Assembly (NCBI RefSeq): GCF_017161565.1
Contig: NZ_CP066796.1
Coordinates: 2,356,001-2,420,000, forward strand
DNA from: Erwinia amylovora
GTDB lineage: Bacteria > Pseudomonadota > Gammaproteobacteria > Enterobacterales > Enterobacteriaceae
DNA: 64,000 nt
Direction of reading: 5' to 3'
Part shown: piece by piece, positions 24,681 through 38,552 of the stretch
Layout of the letters: each line of letters opens with the position of its first letter
Numbering within the stretch: position 1 is the first letter of the stretch
The notes under the pieces: generated by a model
Told to the model about the DNA's origin: nothing
Database searches by the model: none
Seen by the model: only the letters and a program-made list of their open reading frames with translations
Program-made: the position numbers and the translations under genes

Positions 24681-24757
24681 CGGCACGTAGCGCAGTTTGG
24701 TAGCGCACCGTCATGGGGTGTCGGGGGTCGGAGGTTCAAATCCTCTCGTGCCGACCA
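24681..24757 (+). tRNA. proL: tRNA-Pro (GGG)
   Basis: 77 nt including encoded CCA. Acceptor stem CGGCACG pairs with CGTGCCG, the D arm is TAGCGCAG...GGTAGCGCA, the anticodon loop ATGGGGT gives GGG at 24715-24717, and the T arm is GGAGGTTCAAATCCTCT. Nearly identical to E. coli proL, which also follows yejM. It is the integration point of the island: a P4-type integrase remnant lies 215 bases downstream. Confidence 0.97.
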
Positions 24758-24972: not shown

Positions 24973-26138
24973 ATGGCAAGACAGACCAAGCCCTTAAACA
25001 ATACCGAAGTTAAGAACGCCAAAGTTGCTGGACGAGCATTGGTTCTTTATGACGGGGACGCTCTGGAACTGCAGGTAACTCCCGGAGGCTCAAAACTCTG
25101 GCGGTTTCGTTATTACAAACCCTTCACCCGTAAACGGGCCATGATCAGCTTTGGTTCATACCCTTCCGTTTCGCTTTCTGAACCCCGCCAAAATCGCGAA
25201 TCAGCCCGCGCTCTTCTCAGCAAAGACGTCAACCCTCAAGAGCACTAAAAGGCAGAGCAACGTCGTCAGAAGAGTGTGAGTGAAAGTACGTTTGAAAAAG
25301 TTGCAGCTGAGTGGTTTAAGACCAAAGAGGCAGCCGGATTAACAACCCATACTCTTAACGATATCTGGCGCTCAATGAGTAAATATGTGTTCCCACATAT
25401 TGGCTCGATGCCTATTTCCAGCATTACAGCCCAACAATTCATTGGATCCCTTAGCCCAACTTATGCAGCAGGCAGACTCGAAACTGTTGAAAGGTTAAGT
25501 CCGCGTATTAATGAGGTTATGGATTACGCTTTGAACTCTGGCTTAGTGACTTCAAACCCAGCGGCTAAAATCGGTCAGACGTTCCATAAGCCAAAAGTAA
25601 AACACCGCCCCGCCCTCTTACCTGAACAGCCACCTCTGCTTATGAAGAATCTCGCATTTGCGAGTATTGGCAAACAGACGCGCTGTCTCATCGAATGGCA
25701 GCTCCTTACAATGACACGACCGGCAGAAGCGGCGATGACACGCTGGGATGAGATCAACTTCGAGACAAAGGAATTGCGCATTCCTGCCGGGCGCATGAAA
25801 TGAAACGCATGCATATTGTTCCACTATCTGAGCAGATTCTTGCTGTACCAGAAGTTATGAAGCCAATCAGCCAGCACAGACCACACGTTTTTCCCGGGCA
25901 CCGCAATCCACTGGAACCAATGAACAGTCAGACGGCAAACATGGCGCTGAAACGTATGGGCTTCAAAGATATCCTTGTTGCGCATGGTATGAGATCCATA
26001 GCTTCAACTGTTCTTAATGAGAAGGGGTTTCAACCTGACGTCATTGAAGCAGCACTGACTCACATTGATACCATTGGAGTTAGGAGAGCATACAATCTTT
26101 CTCAGTATTTGGAGCAACGAAGAAATATGATGGCGTAG
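24973..26138 (+). pseudogene. P4-type tyrosine integrase, broken by a stop and a frameshift
   Basis: Three consecutive pieces make one integrase of about 388 residues. The first (MARQTKPLNNTEVKNAK) is the DUF4102-type arm-binding domain and ends at an in-frame TAA at 25246-25248. The second reads on in the same frame through the core-binding domain into the catalytic region (CLIEWQLLTMTRPAEAA has the catalytic R) up to ...GRMK. There one A is missing near 25798-25801 (P4 integrases read RMKMKR) and the frame moves, giving MKRMHIVPLS, HGMRSIASTVLNEKGF with the catalytic H-x-x-R, and AYNLSQYLEQRR with the tyrosine. All catalytic residues are still present in the pieces. Two independent lesions argue for real decay. 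Its position behind proL marks the left end of an island. Confidence 0.92.
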
Positions 26139-27213: not shown

Positions 27214-30200
27214 ATGGACGAAATTGAAGGCTCACTTTACAAAAACTCCAATCTGTCACTCAGCCAGAAACTTGAAAAGTCGCGAGCAGAATTACTCGAT
27301 CTGACAGCAAGAAATCGTTTACTTAACATACCAAAATCAAAAACTACAAAATTTTTGGAAGTAGTTAATGAAAGGTCTGACATTCTGTTCAAGATGCTTT
27401 TTGAAGAAGGCAAGCCGTTCACTTTTCTTCATGGTCGAGAAGATAAAAAGACAGATGAAAGCAATGAGAACAGTGAGACAGACTCAGGGTCCGAAGATAT
27501 TATTTTCTTAGATGACTCTGAAACCAACCATAATGATACAAAACTCCAAACCAAGCTCACGCCAAAGACATTACAAAAAAAATTATTAGATTTATATTAC
27601 GACTCAAAAACCCTTGAAGAAGAGCAAGGCGTAAACATCCTGTTTCTGTCGCTAGGATCGCTTAAATGGATAGATCCTAATAACAAAGAAAACATACGCC
27701 ATGCCCCTCTTTTATTATTGCCAGTTGAATTAATGCGAGCTAAAGCAGGAGAACGCTTTAAAATTAAAGTCAGGGATGAGGACATCATTAGCAACCTGTC
27801 GCTTGAGACATTCCTCAGCCGCGTTCACCAAATAACTCCACCCTCACTAAATATCGATGACGAGTTTTCTTTAACGGACTACTTTGCTGATTTCAAGAAA
27901 ACTATTTCATTGAAAGAAGGCTGGGAAGTATTAGAAAATGAAGTGAATTTAGAACTTTTTTCTTACGCTAAATTCATGATGTACACAGATTTAGATCCTG
28001 ATAACTGGCCCCCAGATTCAAAAATCACAGATCAGGAATCAATAAAGTCTCTTTTAGAAACAGGATTCTCTGGTGGAGAGTTAACCTCTGACGACATTAT
28101 AATTGACTCAGTCATTCCTCCCCGAGAAATGCTTCATATTTTGGACAGTGATAGCTCACAGACTCTTGCCATTCACGAAGTACGTAATGGTAAAAGCTTG
28201 GTTATTCAGGGTCCTCCAGGAACTGGTAAATCTCAGACAATCGCAAACATCATAGCTTCAGCAGTAGCAGATGGTAAAAAAGTATTGTTTGTAGCTGAAA
28301 AAATGGCGGCTCTTGAAGTAGTTAAGCGCAGACTTGATCAGGCGGGTGTCGGAGATGCTTGTTTAGAGCTACATAGCAACAAAACCAATAAAAGAGCATT
28401 CCTTGAAGAACTGAAGCGAGTTTGGGAACTTGGTTCCCCTCGAGGAGAATTTCCAGATACATTAGTCAATAATCTCACAGAAAGCAGAGATATCCTCAAC
28501 AATCACCCCGCAAGACTTCATAAAACGTACATGCCATCTGGGTTAACGCCATATAAGGTTATGGCGCAACTGGTACGTCTCAGACAATCAGATTTTGATC
28601 CTAACGATTATAAGCTCAACGGGTATGAATTATGGAGTAACGACGATTTCTCCAAAAGACATGCACTTATTGATGAATTAATTGAAAGGATAAGTGATAT
28701 TGGCATTCCTGATTCGCACCCATGGAATGGTATCGATAGAACTGAGATACTTCCTAGTGAAGTTGAAAGACTCACTGCTTCATTAACGAACCTGAAGTCT
28801 GAACTTTCAGATTCTATTGAAGAGTCTATCAATCTTTTTGAACTAACAAATGAAGTCTATCATATAGACTCATCAAAAGATTTACAGGAATTCATTCGAA
28901 CAGCTGAATTAATTAACTTAGCGCCTAATTTATCACCTGAATCGTTAAGCTCGCCGTTATGGGCCACTTCTAAAGATGAGATAAAAACGTTAATTGAAAC
29001 TGTATTCTCATTTAAAGAGCTCTACACCAAGCTTGAAAAAGAATTACATGCTGATAAATTCAACACCGAGGTCGCCAGCCTTTCAGAAGGCTATCGTAAA
29101 TTACCTGCAGATATTAATATTAATGCTTTTACTGCTGCGTATAAACTGAAGACACTTACACCTAAGATCTTAAAAGAGTCTTCAAGATTACAGCAGGAGT
29201 TGGGTTCAAAAATCGGATTCTCTAATTTAAGTGAGATTGAAAGTCTTATTGAGTTGGGAAAAAGTATTACTCAAGCTCCTAATGTAAGTCCAGAAGCATT
29301 CATTGCCACTGTCTGGGAAGGTGGTATTGAAAAAGCGGCAAGTCTGGTTACAGATATTAAACAACTTAGTGTTTATAAAGAAAAAATCAATCTTATCTTC
29401 GTTGAAAAGGCATGGGAAACAGATTTAGAAAGCACCCGAAACAGCCTTGAAAACAACACTGGCGCTTTGAAATTCCTTAATAGCGAATGGCGAAAGTCGA
29501 AAAAGCTTACTCTTTCATTGATAAATGATAAAAGCTTAACGATCCCTCAGCAGGTTGAGTATCTCGAGCTGTTAATAAAAGCACAGCAATTAAGAAAATC
29601 CATCATTGATTTGAACGAGTTCGGACAGTCTGCATTTGGTTCAGACTGGCGAGGTGAGAATAGCGATAGTGAATTGCTGAAATCACTTGTCGAATGGATG
29701 CGTACCTTACGTGGTATCAACTCTGAAGCCAGAATGATTGCAAGTCGCCTCTCCAACAAAGACGCCTTAGCATATCAAGTGAGTCAGCTTAAAAAACTCA
29801 CCCATGAAATTTTAGATGAAAGTCGTATTCTTTGGGAATCATTGGGAGCCACGCCAGAAGAGTATTTTGATAACTATTATTCCGTTAAAAACATTCCATT
29901 GGAATCACTTTTAGTAAAATCTGATGTGCTAAGCGCTATGGATTCCGCATATAAAGAAGTTTTCGTCAAAAATGAATCCTCGGTTTCTGATCGTATTGAA
30001 TTGTTGAACTTGTTATCAAGCACTCAGCAAAAACTCAATATTATTCAGACTTTCGATAATTTAGCTCAGTCAACCATGCACCCATTATGGTTGAAAGAAA
30101 ACAGTGATTGGGATCTGTTACTTCAAGCTCACTCATGGATTGAAGAAAATAACGACCTAAGAATCATAGCGTCTAAAATAGATGACAAACAGGGTTTAGT

Positions 30201-32727
30201 TGATAAATCCAGAAGTTTAAGCGAGTCTATTCAAGCGCAGTTTGCCAAACTCACATCAGTGATTAGTTCTCTTAAATCTTCCTATGGATCAATTTTCGAA
30301 AATGAAAATGCTCATGAAATACCATTTAATTTAGTCTATGACAAGATTACTCTTTGGATAGATAATTCTGAACAACTTTCAAAATGGGTTTCCTGGCAAA
30401 ACCGTGTAGAGTTGGCGAAAAAATTTGGTATTTATCCATTAATCTCCGATTTGAGTAGTGGCGTTCTTTCCCCGGAACGTTTACTGGGTACTTTTGACAG
30501 AACTTATTTCGACTCAATTCTATCTTTAATGGTCGAAGATGAGCCAGAACTGGCTCGTTTTGATGGTGATTTACATTCAAGAAGAATAGCAAGCTTCGCT
30601 GAGATGGATCTGCGAAGAATTAAAGCTTCTAGTTTTGAAGTTGTAAGAGCTCACCACAGAGCAATTCCCTCTAAAGTTGGCGTAGGCCCTGTGGGTGTCC
30701 TGCGGGGTGAGATGGCACGCAAACGTGGTCATATGGCGATTCGACAGCTCATGATAAAAGCTGGTGCAGCTATTCAGGCCTTAAAGCCAGTTATGATGAT
30801 GAGCCCTCTGTCAGTTGCCCAGTTTTTAGTGCCAAGTAAGCAGTCGTTTGATTTACTGGTAATGGATGAAGCCAGTCAGATCCAACCTGTAGATGCATTA
30901 GGAGCTATTGCACGAAGTAAGCAGATAGTCGTTGTCGGAGACGAACGTCAGTTACCTCCAACTTCTTTCTTCGCCAAAATGACAGGTTCCGCAGATGAGC
31001 AGGATGATGAAGACTCTGCGCAAGTGGCAGACATTGAGAGCATACTTGGACTTTTTGTTGCCAGAGGGTTGCCTCAAAAAATGCTTCGCTGGCATTACAG
31101 AAGCCGTCACCAGTCATTGATTGCTGTGTCGAATAGCCAGTTTTATGAAAACAAGCTTTATATAGTTCCCAGCCCCTATACACAAGGTGCAGGTATGGGC
31201 CTACGTTTCCATAAAGTTGAAGATGGCGTATTCGAATCTGGAAGCAATGCAAACGAAGCAAAACGCGTAGCAACAGCAATTCTTGAACACGCAAGAAGCC
31301 ACCCTCATTTATCTTTAGGTGTTGCTACCTTTTCTGTTACCCAGAGAAAGCGTATTCAGGACGAGCTTGAAGTGCTTCGCAGGTTGAACCCTGAGTTCGA
31401 GGACTTTTTCTATGCGCACCCAAGCGAACCGTTTTTTGTAAAAAACCTTGAAAACATTCAGGGTGACGAACGCGACGTCATTATCATTTCTGTTGGATAT
31501 GCCAGAAATCCACAAAACTATATCGCAATGAGATTTGGTCCTCTTGGAGCAGAGGGTGGTGAAAGACGCTTGAACGTTCTTATCAGTCGAGCCAAAAGGC
31601 GGTGCGAAGTTTATGCCTCAATCACTGACGAAGATATCGATCTTGAAAGGGCTAAAGGTAGAGGTGTATTCGCTTTTAAACTTTTCCTGCAATATGCAAG
31701 AACTGGACGCTTGTCAGTTGCAAAACAAAGTGGCCGTTCAATGGACAGTGTGTTCGAAGAACAGGTTGCAAATGCTCTGCAAAAAGAAGGCTTCCAGGTC
31801 CACCCTCAAGTCGGCATTGCAGGTTTCTTTATTGATTTAGCCATTGCCGACCCTGATATGCCGGGCCGCTACCTTATCGGGATTGAATGCGATGGTATGA
31901 CTTACCACTCTTCCCGTTCTTCGAGAGAAAGAGATCGCCTACGTCAGGCAGTGCTTGAGGATCATGGTTGGATCATTCACAGGATTTGGAGCACGGATTG
32001 GTTCCAGCGCCCCGAAGAGCAACTACAGAAAACTCTCTCTGCTATTCAGGCGGCTAAGAAAGAGCTCGAAAATCGTTCTGAAACTTCTCTCTCTCGTTCA
32101 AGAGCTGTTCCTGTCGAGATTGTGACAGTGGAAAGAGAGACTGTCACAGAAATTGGGCTAGAGACAATTGAAGACAGCTTCAATGAAGCTATCACATATG
32201 TTGAGGCTGTTCCTGAGGTTGACACAAGATTTCAGATTCATGAGACCCCTGTGGGGGTTCTCGCCAAGATAGTCGAGCAGATTGTTCTTGTTGAGGCCCC
32301 GATACATGTGAGCGAAGTGATCACTCGTATCAGGTCAGCATGGGGTCTACAACGTGCAGGGGCTCGTATTGAAGCCATTGTTAAAGATGCGATAAAAATC
32401 ACAACCTCAAATTCCTCAATTTGCCTTGAAGATGACTTTATATACAACGATAATCTTTCGATAAGATTGAGAGACAGAACGAATGTTAAATCAGCAGGAT
32501 TAAGAAAGTCGGAAAACATATCTAATAAGGAAATGGAGGCAGGAATTATTGATATTATCAATAAAAGCTTCGGTGCTACCCAAGACGAGCTGGTCAATTC
32601 TGTATCAAGGGCAATAGGCTTCAAGGCTACAAGTGGTACTTTAAAAGGCATTATCATATCCATAATTCAAAAAATGGAAAGTGATAATAAAATCGTTTTT
32701 AAAGAACCAATGTACTATATCATATGA
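27214..32727 (+). CDS. DUF4011-type SF1 helicase with C-terminal Vsr/MTES_1575-like nuclease and DUF3320
   Basis: 1837 residues. The N terminus (LSQKLEKSRAELLDLTARNR, and later LSLGSLKWID) is DUF4011-like. An SF1 (AAA_11/AAA_12) helicase is split by a long helical insertion: Walker A GPPGTGKS at 333-340, then after about 850 residues DEAS Walker B at 1218-1221, GDERQLPP at 1242-1249, LRWHYRSRH at 1291-1299, NIQGDERDV near 1414-1422 and the arginine-bearing RLNVLISRAKRR at 1452-1463. A PD-(D/E)XK nuclease follows (D1541, E1558-C-D1560-G, plus R/W-rich end), then a DUF3320-like segment near 1675-1725. This domain order is known from large defence-island proteins. The cell function is inferred as nucleic-acid surveillance or phage defence. 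AT-rich composition differs from the flanking core. Confidence 0.85.
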   Translation: MDEIEGSLYKNSNLSLSQKLEKSRAELLDLTARNRLLNIPKSKTTKFLEVVNERSDILFKMLFEEGKPFTFLHGREDKKTDESNENSETDSGSEDIIFLDDSETNHNDTKLQTKLTPKTLQKKLLDLYYDSKTLEEEQGVNILFLSLGSLKWIDPNNKENIRHAPLLLLPVELMRAKAGERFKIKVRDEDIISNLSLETFLSRVHQITPPSLNIDDEFSLTDYFADFKKTISLKEGWEVLENEVNLELFSYAKFMMYTDLDPDNWPPDSKITDQESIKSLLETGFSGGELTSDDIIIDSVIPPREMLHILDSDSSQTLAIHEVRNGKSLVIQGPPGTGKSQTIANIIASAVADGKKVLFVAEKMAALEVVKRRLDQAGVGDACLELHSNKTNKRAFLEELKRVWELGSPRGEFPDTLVNNLTESRDILNNHPARLHKTYMPSGLTPYKVMAQLVRLRQSDFDPNDYKLNGYELWSNDDFSKRHALIDELIERISDIGIPDSHPWNGIDRTEILPSEVERLTASLTNLKSELSDSIEESINLFELTNEVYHIDSSKDLQEFIRTAELINLAPNLSPESLSSPLWATSKDEIKTLIETVFSFKELYTKLEKELHADKFNTEVASLSEGYRKLPADININAFTAAYKLKTLTPKILKESSRLQQELGSKIGFSNLSEIESLIELGKSITQAPNVSPEAFIATVWEGGIEKAASLVTDIKQLSVYKEKINLIFVEKAWETDLESTRNSLENNTGALKFLNSEWRKSKKLTLSLINDKSLTIPQQVEYLELLIKAQQLRKSIIDLNEFGQSAFGSDWRGENSDSELLKSLVEWMRTLRGINSEARMIASRLSNKDALAYQVSQLKKLTHEILDESRILWESLGATPEEYFDNYYSVKNIPLESLLVKSDVLSAMDSAYKEVFVKNESSVSDRIELLNLLSSTQQKLNIIQTFDNLAQSTMHPLWLKENSDWDLLLQAHSWIEENNDLRIIASKIDDKQGLVDKSRSLSESIQAQFAKLTSVISSLKSSYGSIFENENAHEIPFNLVYDKITLWIDNSEQLSKWVSWQNRVELAKKFGIYPLISDLSSGVLSPERLLGTFDRTYFDSILSLMVEDEPELARFDGDLHSRRIASFAEMDLRRIKASSFEVVRAHHRAIPSKVGVGPVGVLRGEMARKRGHMAIRQLMIKAGAAIQALKPVMMMSPLSVAQFLVPSKQSFDLLVMDEASQIQPVDALGAIARSKQIVVVGDERQLPPTSFFAKMTGSADEQDDEDSAQVADIESILGLFVARGLPQKMLRWHYRSRHQSLIAVSNSQFYENKLYIVPSPYTQGAGMGLRFHKVEDGVFESGSNANEAKRVATAILEHARSHPHLSLGVATFSVTQRKRIQDELEVLRRLNPEFEDFFYAHPSEPFFVKNLENIQGDERDVIIISVGYARNPQNYIAMRFGPLGAEGGERRLNVLISRAKRRCEVYASITDEDIDLERAKGRGVFAFKLFLQYARTGRLSVAKQSGRSMDSVFEEQVANALQKEGFQVHPQVGIAGFFIDLAIADPDMPGRYLIGIECDGMTYHSSRSSRERDRLRQAVLEDHGWIIHRIWSTDWFQRPEEQLQKTLSAIQAAKKELENRSETSLSRSRAVPVEIVTVERETVTEIGLETIEDSFNEAITYVEAVPEVDTRFQIHETPVGVLAKIVEQIVLVEAPIHVSEVITRIRSAWGLQRAGARIEAIVKDAIKITTSNSSICLEDDFIYNDNLSIRLRDRTNVKSAGLRKSENISNKEMEAGIIDIINKSFGATQDELVNSVSRAIGFKATSGTLKGIIISIIQKMESDNKIVFKEPMYYII

Positions 32728-32858
32728 TACTAATTTAGTGGCTTGCATTCCAAGGCCACTAAATGCGCAGAAACTTGAGACACAGAATATCATTCTCGTG
32801 TCTCACTCAATAAAAAGCTCACGTTAACTCACTATTAAAAAAATATGGACAACACTTT

Positions 32859-34025
32859 ATGATTTATCAATGTTATTCATGCAGCAAGACATCTTTCGAA
32901 ATTATTTGCCCATGGTGTTCTGGCGGAGTTCCAACGGCAACAAATTCATGGGGTACAAAAACACACACACCCATAACCTCAGAAGAAATGATACCTCTTA
33001 ACCCTTCTTTTTATCCTGAATTCCAATATCAGTCAAAAGGAGTTATAAAAGACCTGTTCGGAAAAAAGAAAGAGCAATCCCAACTCAATAGTCTTCTGCA
33101 AAACGTTCTAGATAAATATGCAGCGTTTAAGGATCCTTACTTCACCAATTTCATTCACACGACAAAGTTTTCACATGATAAGCGTTCAGAGAATAATTTT
33201 ACTGAAGACAAAAGTACTTATTCTGATTTTGTTTTGTTTCGTGAGGTGCTTGTCAGGAAGGGCTTTAATGAGTTAGAAGAGTTGCCAATGCTTTTGGACA
33301 AGCTTTTACTTACCACATCATTTAACGCTTTATATAATGGATTTGCGAAAGAGATCAAAAGGCATATCAAACCTACATTCACAGAATCTTTGAAATCATG
33401 GATTGAAGAAGCAGGAACAACATTTAGAGCGGATCTATCTTTATTTCTATATTTTGTCTGGAACAATAAAATTACTTTCCCTGAATTAGATTTCAATGAG
33501 AATGCATATAACACCCCCGGCACACCATTAATCTCAATGGATAATATTAGAAACTATATATCAATCTGTGAAACTATATACTTTGACATATTAGTCGAGA
33601 GATTGGCTACGCGACTTGAGCACTTCAATCCCGATAAGTATGTTAATATGTACTCAGTGGATTCAATGAATGGTTTTGAATTTGAAGACTTCTTAGTCAA
33701 GATATTCCAGACTCTTGGGTATGATGTTAAAGAAACCAAGAGAACACAAGATCAAGGTGCAGATTTATTTGTTACTCGTTTCGACAAAAATATTGTTATA
33801 CAGGCAAAAAACTATTCTGGCTCAGTTGGTAATTCAGCAGTACAACAAGCCATCTCCGCAAAGACATTTTATTCATGTGACGAAGCAATGGTTATTACAA
33901 ACTCATATTTTACTAATTCGGCTAAAGAGCTTGCAGAATCAGCAAAAGTACGTTTGATTGACAGAAATGAATTACAGAGATATCTTGAGGATTATAATCA
34001 AAAATTAATAGAAGACTTCAATTAA
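32859..34025 (+). CDS. Zinc-ribbon protein with Mrr-like restriction endonuclease domain
   Basis: 388 residues. The N terminus has a zinc ribbon (CYSC at 5-8 and CPWC at 18-21). The middle is helical and not recognised. The C terminus (about 268-385) is an Mrr_cat-like PD-(D/E)XK domain: E274/E276 in GFEFEDFLV, D302 in GADLFV, and Q315-A-K317 in IVIQAKNYSG, the QxK form typical of Mrr. It follows the helicase on the same strand after 131 bases, so co-expression is likely but a separate promoter is possible. Mrr enzymes cut modified DNA; the target here is unknown. Confidence 0.85.
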   Translation: MIYQCYSCSKTSFEIICPWCSGGVPTATNSWGTKTHTPITSEEMIPLNPSFYPEFQYQSKGVIKDLFGKKKEQSQLNSLLQNVLDKYAAFKDPYFTNFIHTTKFSHDKRSENNFTEDKSTYSDFVLFREVLVRKGFNELEELPMLLDKLLLTTSFNALYNGFAKEIKRHIKPTFTESLKSWIEEAGTTFRADLSLFLYFVWNNKITFPELDFNENAYNTPGTPLISMDNIRNYISICETIYFDILVERLATRLEHFNPDKYVNMYSVDSMNGFEFEDFLVKIFQTLGYDVKETKRTQDQGADLFVTRFDKNIVIQAKNYSGSVGNSAVQQAISAKTFYSCDEAMVITNSYFTNSAKELAESAKVRLIDRNELQRYLEDYNQKLIEDFN

Positions 34026-34144
34026 GTCAATCATATTGAATTTAGCAAACTTAGATCTGTAAATTATATTATATTCACGTTAAGTTATCTTATTAAAATT
34101 AAAATCCTTGTAGACAAGGTTTAAGTTAGATACTAAGGAATTAA

Positions 34145-34870
34145 ATGGATAGAATTAATCAGATAGTAGGCATTCTTAGTAAAATGGAATCACACACTCC
34201 TTTTGCGACGATGAAAGCAAAGAAAAGAATTTCAATAAAAATTCAAAACTACTCTTTACTTGGATGTATTTTTTCTTTTCTTTTGTTAATGATTTTGTTT
34301 GTAATATGCCTAACATTCAAGATTGAAAAAAACAGTGTAAAAACTTTCGCACTAATACTACTTGTGATAAATCATATTTTTGGGATTGTATGTTTATTAA
34401 CACCTGTAATCAGTGGTATGAAATTTATCTTCAACATGCGTAACGAAGTAATGAACGACTTTCAAATGGAAATTAACCACGATGAGAAGAACGTTGAACA
34501 ACTTGAGCATTATTCCATTCCCGAGCTGGATTATGCAACACATTTGTTAGCTTTTAAAATCGAACGTTTTAAGGCACGTATCTCAGATTTTTTCGGCACC
34601 AAAACAGCAATATTATCTATTCTAGGGCTATCATACTCTGCTGTACAAGCTTTAGGAGGATTTGAAAAAATAACCCATATCTTAGCTAAGGGGTTATTCA
34701 ATTCTGACATCGCCAATATAATTTCGATATTTGGTTTATCTTTTCTACTTGGTATTTCCATAGGGGCTATTATAATGAAAAACATTATTAATCATTTTGA
34801 ATATTTGAAAAGCATCTTGGAACTTGCGAAGCAGCGTAAAAATCGTTCAATCATCAAAACGCCTGATTGA
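34145..34870 (+). CDS. Hypothetical multi-pass membrane protein next to helicase/Mrr genes
   Basis: 241 residues, not recognised. Hydrophobic segments: about 38-60 (LLGCIFSFLLLMILFVICL), 68-92, 152-170 and 195-215. The middle part (residues 95-150) is polar and charged, and the C terminus is basic. It lies 119 bases after the Mrr-like gene, same strand, same AT-rich composition. A membrane partner beside nuclease genes is a common arrangement in abortive-infection systems, but function here is inference only. Confidence 0.6.
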   Translation: MDRINQIVGILSKMESHTPFATMKAKKRISIKIQNYSLLGCIFSFLLLMILFVICLTFKIEKNSVKTFALILLVINHIFGIVCLLTPVISGMKFIFNMRNEVMNDFQMEINHDEKNVEQLEHYSIPELDYATHLLAFKIERFKARISDFFGTKTAILSILGLSYSAVQALGGFEKITHILAKGLFNSDIANIISIFGLSFLLGISIGAIIMKNIINHFEYLKSILELAKQRKNRSIIKTPD

Positions 34871-36387: not shown

Positions 36388-37434
36388 ATGAATAGAGACA
36401 TCCAGGTACTAAGGTGTATCGCAATTATCTTTGTGGTTTTTGTCCATGTCGGCATGATCATCCCGGAGAACTTTCAACAGCTCTACAAAAAGGTCGACAG
36501 CATTTTTCACACCAACATGGGGGTTGAGTTATTTTTTGTCATAGCGGGATATTTCTTATCTCACTCACTCTCTAAATATCAAGTTCCCGATCGAAAAAAT
36601 GGATTTGAAAAAATACTCATATTCTCGATAAATAAATTTAAGAGATTGTTTCTACCCGTATATTTTTGGGCGGCCATTCCTATGGTAATGGCATTGTTAA
36701 CCAGAAACACCGATCTCTGGTATTCTCCAGACGTTATGATTCAAAAGTTTCTATCAACCGTTGCGTGGATGAGGGATTTCAGCGAGGCGGTCAGCCAGAA
36801 CTCGTTTGGTTATTTTTGGGCGGTGTCTCTTGAGATGCAGACATTTTTAATTTTTGCCGCAGTATATATTTTAGCCGGAAAAAGAATTGCAGTAGCTCTA
36901 TCTGTTGTCATTTGCTTTATTATGACACTCTACCGACCAGGCGGAGAGCAGTTCTGGTGGTTCAGGTTTGATCCTGTTCTCTTCGGTGTGATTGCTCACT
37001 ACGTGCTTCATGATTCTATAGGTCTTAACAGGATTAAGGAGTTAACTAAATGCAGCAAAGTGAACAAGGCGTTTATTTCATCTCTTCTGATACTGTGCCT
37101 TGGTGCTACATATAATTCCTTAAAACCCCTGACTCACTTTGTTTCAACGTCAGGTTCACTTATTTCATGCGTGATGCTTATGCTTGCAGTGAGTGAGAAT
37201 TCATTCTACACATTCCTGCCATCCGCCATCAATAAAGTGACGACATTTATTGGAGACAGAAGTTTCTCACTGTTTTGCTGCCATATACCTTCGTGGTTAT
37301 TGGTAAGGCAATTATTTGAGGGTCTTCAAATAAACGAGGATTACCTTTTTTTAGCTCAGGTGGCAGGCATGATTATTTTTACAGAATTGACATTTAAACT
37401 CCTTGAGATTAAGCCAAATAAGCGGGTATTTTAG
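36388..37434 (+). CDS. Acyltransferase 3 family membrane protein
   Basis: 348 residues, about ten transmembrane helices. The N-terminal [20 protein letters not shown], with R and H conserved, and [19 protein letters not shown] are hallmarks of the acyltransferase-3 (OafA/WecH-like) family. Such enzymes transfer acetyl or other acyl groups to extracellular or LPS sugars. The substrate is unknown. It is intact and carries an AAGGA-type site upstream (AGGAAGAAGGATG). It lies alone among remnants, so it may be horizontally acquired cargo affecting surface antigens. Confidence 0.82.
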
Positions 37435-37725
37435 GCCATTCAATACCAGGTGCTTTTGATGTGTCGACACGAGTTAAACGCACCCTATATTTTTTCCATT
37501 CCAAAAGCCGATCCTTCTCTTCTTCTGTCGCCATATCAGTTTTACAGCATTCTGAAGAACAGCTACTTTCTGTGAAATCTCGTCCATTAGTGCCTTTTGC
37601 GCACGTTTGCCTCGCTTAAGTAATCGACAACAGGGTCTTGCAGTATGGGTAATTCCCTGCCACTGGGGGTGACTATTTTTCCGTTTGACTGTCCAATCAT
37701 CAGATAATTGTAGTGCTCAACGGTA
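37433..37725 (-). pseudogene. Phage tail fibre assembly (Tfa) gene remnant
   Basis: The minus strand reads VEHYNYLMIGQSNGKIV and [15 protein letters not shown], then [17 protein letters not shown], then [19 protein letters not shown] and [13 protein letters not shown] in three successive frames. Both ends of this pattern (the QSxGK segment, and WKKYRV...VDTS..P.IEWP) are typical of tail fibre assembly chaperones. Two frameshifts make it non-functional. It abuts the acyltransferase stop and the IS3 remnant, so it is a cut prophage fragment. Confidence 0.65.
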
Positions 37726-37727
37726 AA

Positions 37728-38493
37728 TAAGACCAAAGACCTGGAAAATGAGAATCATCGTCTGAAGCAGATGTTTGCCAATCTGAGCCTTGAGTGCCGG
37801 GCGCTGAAGAATGTGACCGAACAAAACTCTGAAACCCGCAGTGAAGCAGGAGCTGGCCACATATATTGTTCAGACATTTTCGCTGAGTGTCCGGCAGGCC
37901 CGCCGGGTGCTGTCGCTGAGCCGAACGGTTTATCATTATCGCCCGGACTCAGAACGTGATGACCCATTATCAGTGCGCTTCAGCAGGCGGCTGAGCGTTA
38001 TCCACGCTACGGTTTCAGCAAGCTGTTCCGGCTACTGCGCCGGAATGGACACCCGTGGAATCACAAGCGTGTGCACCGGATATACTGCCTGCTGAAACTG
38101 AATTTCAGGCGTGAAAGAAAAAACGCTTACCTGCCGCAATGCGGAACCGCTGGCGGTGCCGGCATCGTTGAACCAGAGCTGGTCGATAGAATTTATGCAC
38201 GATGCACTGACGTGTGGACGGCGGTTTCGTACTTTCAACGTCGTAGACGATTTTAATCGTGAGGCACTGGCGATTGAAATTGACTTTAAACTGCCCGCAC
38301 AACGCGTAATCCGGGTACTGGATCGTATTGCATACAGCCGGGGCTATCCGCTGAAGCTGCGGATGGACAATGGCCATGAGTTTATTTCTCTGATGCTGGC
38401 TGAATGGGCAGAAACCCGGGAAGTAGTACTGGAATTTATTAAACCGGGCAAACCGACCCAGAATGCGTTTATTGAACGTTTTAACCGCACTTA
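37728..38493 (+). pseudogene. IS3-family transposase remnant (OrfA end and truncated OrfB)
   Basis: Starts inside OrfA (DLENENHRLKQMFANLSLE, the leucine-zipper end), then OrfB in several frames: VQTFSLSVRQARRVLSLSRT, then HRIYCLLKLNFRR, then the rve/DDE core SLNQSWSIEFMHDAL, VVDDFNREALAIE, LRMDNGHEFISLML and KPGKPTQNAFIERFNRT. The D, D and E catalytic residues are present but the frame is broken repeatedly, OrfA lacks its start, and OrfB ends in a TAA directly after NRT, well short of the usual end. No terminal inverted repeats were found. Confidence 0.85.
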
Positions 38494-38552
38494 ACGGACA
38501 GGTAACCAGAATTCTTTATGGATAGTCTGGGCCTGTTTACCAGGCTCACTTT

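Follow-up and report, generated by a model that had tools for sequence, protein, structure and literature searches.

Genes and integration site

The window, the whole stretch of 64,000 nucleotides of Erwinia amylovora DNA that was analysed, lies within a genome of 3.84 Mb and carries three genes following each other on the forward strand. Gene A (27214..32727, +) has an open frame of 1837 aa comprising DUF4011, a split SF1 helicase, an MTES_1575 Vsr-like nuclease and DUF3320, and was assigned by profile matches to the ProA/PDC-S37 family. Gene B (32859..34025, +; 388 aa) encodes a putative N-terminal four-cysteine zinc ribbon and a C-terminal Mrr_cat nuclease domain, and gene C (34145..34870, +; 241 aa) a predicted orphan membrane protein with three strongly hydrophobic stretches and no family. 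The gaps between the genes are 131 bases (A-B) and 119 bases (B-C). The GC content is 54.1% in yejM, 40.4% in A, 34.5% in B and 31.8% in C, and 50.2% in the whole window. An earlier sequence-only reading of this DNA had described three AT-rich genes on the same strand, and this was borne out. The domains that it had assigned to A and the Mrr domain of B were recovered by Pfam, and the residues that it had named (K339 and E1558 in A, K317 in B) were present.

The start of the island is marked by a gene for tRNA-Pro with the anticodon GGG (24681..24757, +), detected with ARAGORN, and a broken integrase gene follows it (24973..26138, +). The Pfam domains Arm-DNA-bind_3, Phage_int_M and Phage_integrase matched successive pieces of this integrase, which is divided into three frames (24973-25248, 25276-25803 and 25800-26138), whereas it is a single frame of 421 aa in the loci L002 and L003. 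Insertion at tRNA-Pro(GGG) recurs: in L002, L003, L055, L087 and L089 the cargo, which is B-C, B, A-B or B, likewise comes after this tRNA and a related integrase. The far boundary of the island could be marked by a direct repeat of at least 11 bases of the tRNA 3' end, but none was found in the window. No near DNA matches of the window were obtained in E. coli genomes. Plasmid DNA matches occurred in 21 records; among the 20 listed, 19 covered the yejM/tRNA end only, and the remaining one was a short piece near window position 37.7 kb. The stretch is foreign DNA beside a tRNA gene and looks like an ordinary defence island; in other genomes B and C are mostly found without A.

Gene A and the ProA family

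The Pfam matches on A were DUF4011 (residues 26-201), AAA_11 (from residue 312), AAA_12 (1285-1466), the MTES_1575 nuclease (1514-1611) and DUF3320 (1675-1720). The active-site residues of helicase and nuclease, K339, D1218/E1219 and E1558, were present and invariant in all 12 aligned A sequences. Among solved structures, the best sequence matches to A were the helicases SMUBP-2 and UPF1. According to a 2013 paper (PMC3710099), the DUF3320 region is a winged helix and MTES_1575 a nuclease with the Vsr fold. Relatives of A are abundant, with 7753 of the 8000 candidates scored passing an E-value of 0.001.

Against the NCBIfam model NF058533, "anti-phage protein ProA", A scored 1540.7 bits over most of its length and thereby narrowly passed the curated cut-off of 1500. 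The profile check against PADLOC, which had been proposed beforehand, gave 1800 bits with the candidate PDC-S37. Judged by these profiles, A is a member of the named anti-phage family ProA/PDC-S37. It differs from ProA in the small margin above the cut-off and in the adjoining Mrr-like gene B, which is absent beside most other A relatives found. The sequence-only reading had rightly tied the domain types to phage defence; its statement that the trio could not be assigned to a named system does not hold for A. Among the papers listed by the literature searches (20 of 458 in one of them), none naming ProA or PDC-S37 as protein A was found. Membership in the Hhe family was also considered. A shares with Hhe the general plan of DUF4011, helicase and nuclease and reached 757 bits with the PADLOC Hhe model, but its 1061.6 bits are far under the NCBIfam cut-off of 2000 (NF042953), so that Hhe would be a sister family and A not a member of it.

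Gene B

The Mrr_cat domain of B extends from residue 268 to 375 (Pfam, E-value 1.5e-29). The residues D302, Q315 and K317 and the cysteines C5, C8, C17 and C20 were invariant in 30 of 30 B sequences, and the four cysteines probably form a zinc ribbon. For both A and B, the family matches together with the invariant residues are far beyond chance. B resembles the Mrr-type restriction endonucleases in its Mrr_cat domain with invariant D302, Q315 and K317, but differs from them in the N-terminal four-cysteine ribbon and in a middle part that no Pfam family matched. B received no name from NCBIfam, PADLOC models matched its C-terminal part only, and no solved structure was related to it by sequence.

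Relatives of B passing an E-value of 0.001 numbered 286, of which the best 120 were listed. A full-length B of 388 aa is annotated in Erwinia pyrifoliae (P0002). None of 59 plasmid records covered B by at least 80%, and relatives of B or C were not confirmed in IMG/VR viral contigs.

Joint and separate occurrence of genes A and B

In the family sample of 295 genomes, using thresholds of E 1e-100 for A and 1e-40 for B, A was detected in 14 genomes and B in 7, with both in three (the window genome, G086 and G146). The class sample of 369 genomes yielded 13 with A and one with B, the latter being the window genome itself. A was present in 4 and B in 5 of the 37 genomes of the genus sample, and both in three (the window genome, G666 and G679). 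The samples overlap, as the window genome is included in all three and three further genomes are common to the family and genus samples. A without detectable B was thus found in 11 of 14 family, 12 of 13 class and one of 4 genus genomes having A. In all five genomes with close relatives of both genes, A and B were adjacent in the same order. The pairing is therefore no random meeting, and the adjacency is real.

The window was the only one of these five genomes in which both genes were intact. In G146, G086 and G666 the tblastn match of B ended before the Mrr domain, at residues 161, 225 and 126, respectively, while A was open there; the genome search with B gave a match of residues 1-185 with two stops in G146. 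In G679, A was in pieces, its middle being unmatched, and B contained one stop. Conversely, an open B without A was found at the same tRNA in G671 (locus L003, from Erwinia mallotivora), G685 (locus L087) and L002 (Ca. Pantoea varia). The DNA matches of the window to L002 or L003 stopped just past the integrase and resumed at the first base of B. Since A persists in three genomes that have lost the catalytic domain of B, and B in turn is found at this tRNA where A is missing, A seems to be retained without B. Gain and loss gene by gene is the simplest reading of this distribution; alternatively, the truncation of B could be a sign that the entire A-B pair is dying in those genomes.

We consider it likely that the three genes belong to the cargo of a defence island integrated at tRNA-Pro(GGG): A as a self-sufficient anti-phage protein of the ProA/PDC-S37 family, B as a separate Mrr-type DNase and C as a third, unassigned membrane protein. 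The data show the gene order, the domains, the invariant catalytic residues, the family membership of A, and the separate occurrence and loss of A and B; that DNA is cut, that A is self-sufficient and that B and C are defence genes at all is inferred. A would act alone against phages: with its SF1 helicase motor it would move along invading DNA, aided by the terminal DUF4011 and winged-helix DUF3320 parts, and with the Vsr-like nuclease it would cut this DNA. B would be a separate restriction-type DNase with a zinc-ribbon front end. By family, A belongs to a named anti-phage group, B is of the Mrr kind but has no name, and C is an orphan.

An island with independent genes is supported by the scores of A with ProA and PDC-S37. 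The independence of A and B is further supported by the many A genomes without B and by the open B without A in G671, G685 and L002, by the three genomes in which A is open and B ends before its Mrr domain, by the varied other defence neighbours of B (see below), and by the DNA matches to L002 and L003 that resume at the first base of B. A and B are most likely independent DNA-cleaving defences. Several points count against this explanation: the ProA cut-off was passed by a small margin only, A and B were adjacent in the same order in all genomes having close relatives of both, a full-length annotated B exists in E. pyrifoliae, and the truncated B copies may reflect the decay of the pair. For the assembly of such islands, the data would mean that genes join and decay singly, several times at one tRNA site.

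The constant adjacency could also be explained if A and B formed a two-gene system, a helicase-nuclease with a second nuclease, in the Erwinia/Pantoea lineage, C being a bystander. The A-B spacer aligns among the window, G146 and G086, and the pair may occupy other sites too, as the stretches fetched from G086 and G679 contained no tRNA-Pro. However, three of the four other genomes with the pair have lost the Mrr domain of B, the fourth (G679) has a fragmented A and a stop in B, and most A genomes lack B while B is found without A. Such a partnership in the Erwinia/Pantoea lineage is possible, but rather unlikely and less likely than the independence of A and B.

Neighbourhoods of gene B

The surroundings of B were surveyed in 22 loci of genome contigs. 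L009, L018 and L023 were shorter than 5 kb and L005, L011 and L016 began less than 600 bases before B, so that neighbours may have been missed in those six. Among the 22 loci, a close A adjoined B once (L015, Pantoea ananatis, with a truncated B), and C likewise adjoined it in one locus, L002. In L004, L006, L007, L008, L014 and L021, the genes ahead of B were those of type I restriction, a YgjP-like gene and one or both of a GmrSD-like and a PDC-S26 gene; the copies of L004 and L007 were scanned with Pfam and PADLOC, and the other four were placed via their BLAST cluster. An AbiO/Nhi-like helicase of one cluster lay directly upstream of B in L009 and L010, the copy of L010 being the one scanned. 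Further neighbours were MzaA and MzaC after B (L007), a PDC-S06 protein before B (L019) and a PDC-S25 protein near B (L003). B is a conserved, unnamed Mrr nuclease with a probable zinc ribbon that is found in varied defence surroundings, and this family would be worth study in its own right.

The position of B near large helicases recurs in L009/L010 and in L012, where a distant A-like gene of 2108 aa lies about 2.6 kb downstream of the B relative, and this counts against the independence of A and B. B might conceivably be a plug-in nuclease module that repeatedly came to lie beside unrelated large defence ATPases and nucleases, for instance ProA, AbiO/Nhi-like helicases or type I restriction together with GmrSD or PDC-S26, and that added to whichever of them it joined. 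We regard this as improbable. If B were indeed a general add-on to other defences, it would say something about how cooperation arises in defence islands.

Two of the loci had an extended arrangement. In L007:9983-18021 the type I restriction/PDC-S26 cluster lies on one side of the B relative, and MzaA and MzaC genes of full length lie on the other. In L012:4256-14759 the B relative is followed by a ClpB-like AAA gene, a gene of 214 aa and the 2108-aa PDC-S37/Hhe-like protein, the N-terminal part of which also matches the PD-T4-6 and mad6 models.

Gene C

C gave no Pfam match at an E-value of 0.1, and none of its E-values with NCBIfam models was meaningful. Its strongly hydrophobic stretches comprise residues 33-63, 64-92 and 188-216, and from these features C is predicted to be an orphan membrane protein without a family. 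The protein search with C yielded 6 proteins, the window's own included. Likewise including its own genome, C was present in 3 of 295 family and one of 37 genus genomes. The one other locus in which C adjoined B was L002, with 84% DNA identity to the B-C stretch of the window; in L056, C was located beside an integrase without A or B.

Distant relatives of C occurred in 93 plasmid records, 89 of them from Escherichia and 77 predicted to be conjugative; the 20 listed among these records were 31.9-38.2% identical to C. Three were inspected. One of them (L073:6001-6735, from a plasmid of E. coli) is located downstream of a DotA/TraY conjugation gene, the place of excA in R64, and the other two follow an autotransporter gene. 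C shares with ExcA of IncI1 the nature of a small membrane protein, and the position of the one distant relative is a hint in the same direction. However, this relative, which was compared in place of C itself, had no significant similarity to R64 ExcA (E 4.2), and the lead towards an ExcA-type exclusion role of C gained no sequence support.

The sequence-only reading had combined the three genes into an undescribed system of two nucleases and a membrane partner. That the three genes make up a single system of phage defence or plasmid exclusion, to which C would contribute the membrane part, is highly improbable: the common strand, the short gaps, the B-C neighbourhood in L002 and the plasmid relatives of C speak for it, but C is rare, stands without A or B in L056 and has a plasmid relative with only E 4.2 to ExcA, and no second genome or locus with all three genes was found among the loci and the family and genus genomes searched (A and B also in the class sample). 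The trio was therefore rejected as a conserved unit, and the proposed new system was not supported, as A is already named and the trio did not recur in the genomes and loci searched. The expected co-occurrence was seen for pairs, A-B in five genomes and B-C in one other locus, with A-B decaying gene by gene; the three genes as neighbours were not encountered again. The assigned domains and the connection with phage defence stood, and the view of the three genes as one unit did not. Further downstream, at 36388-38494, C is followed by an Acyl_transf_3 gene and a short piece of a transposase (rve).
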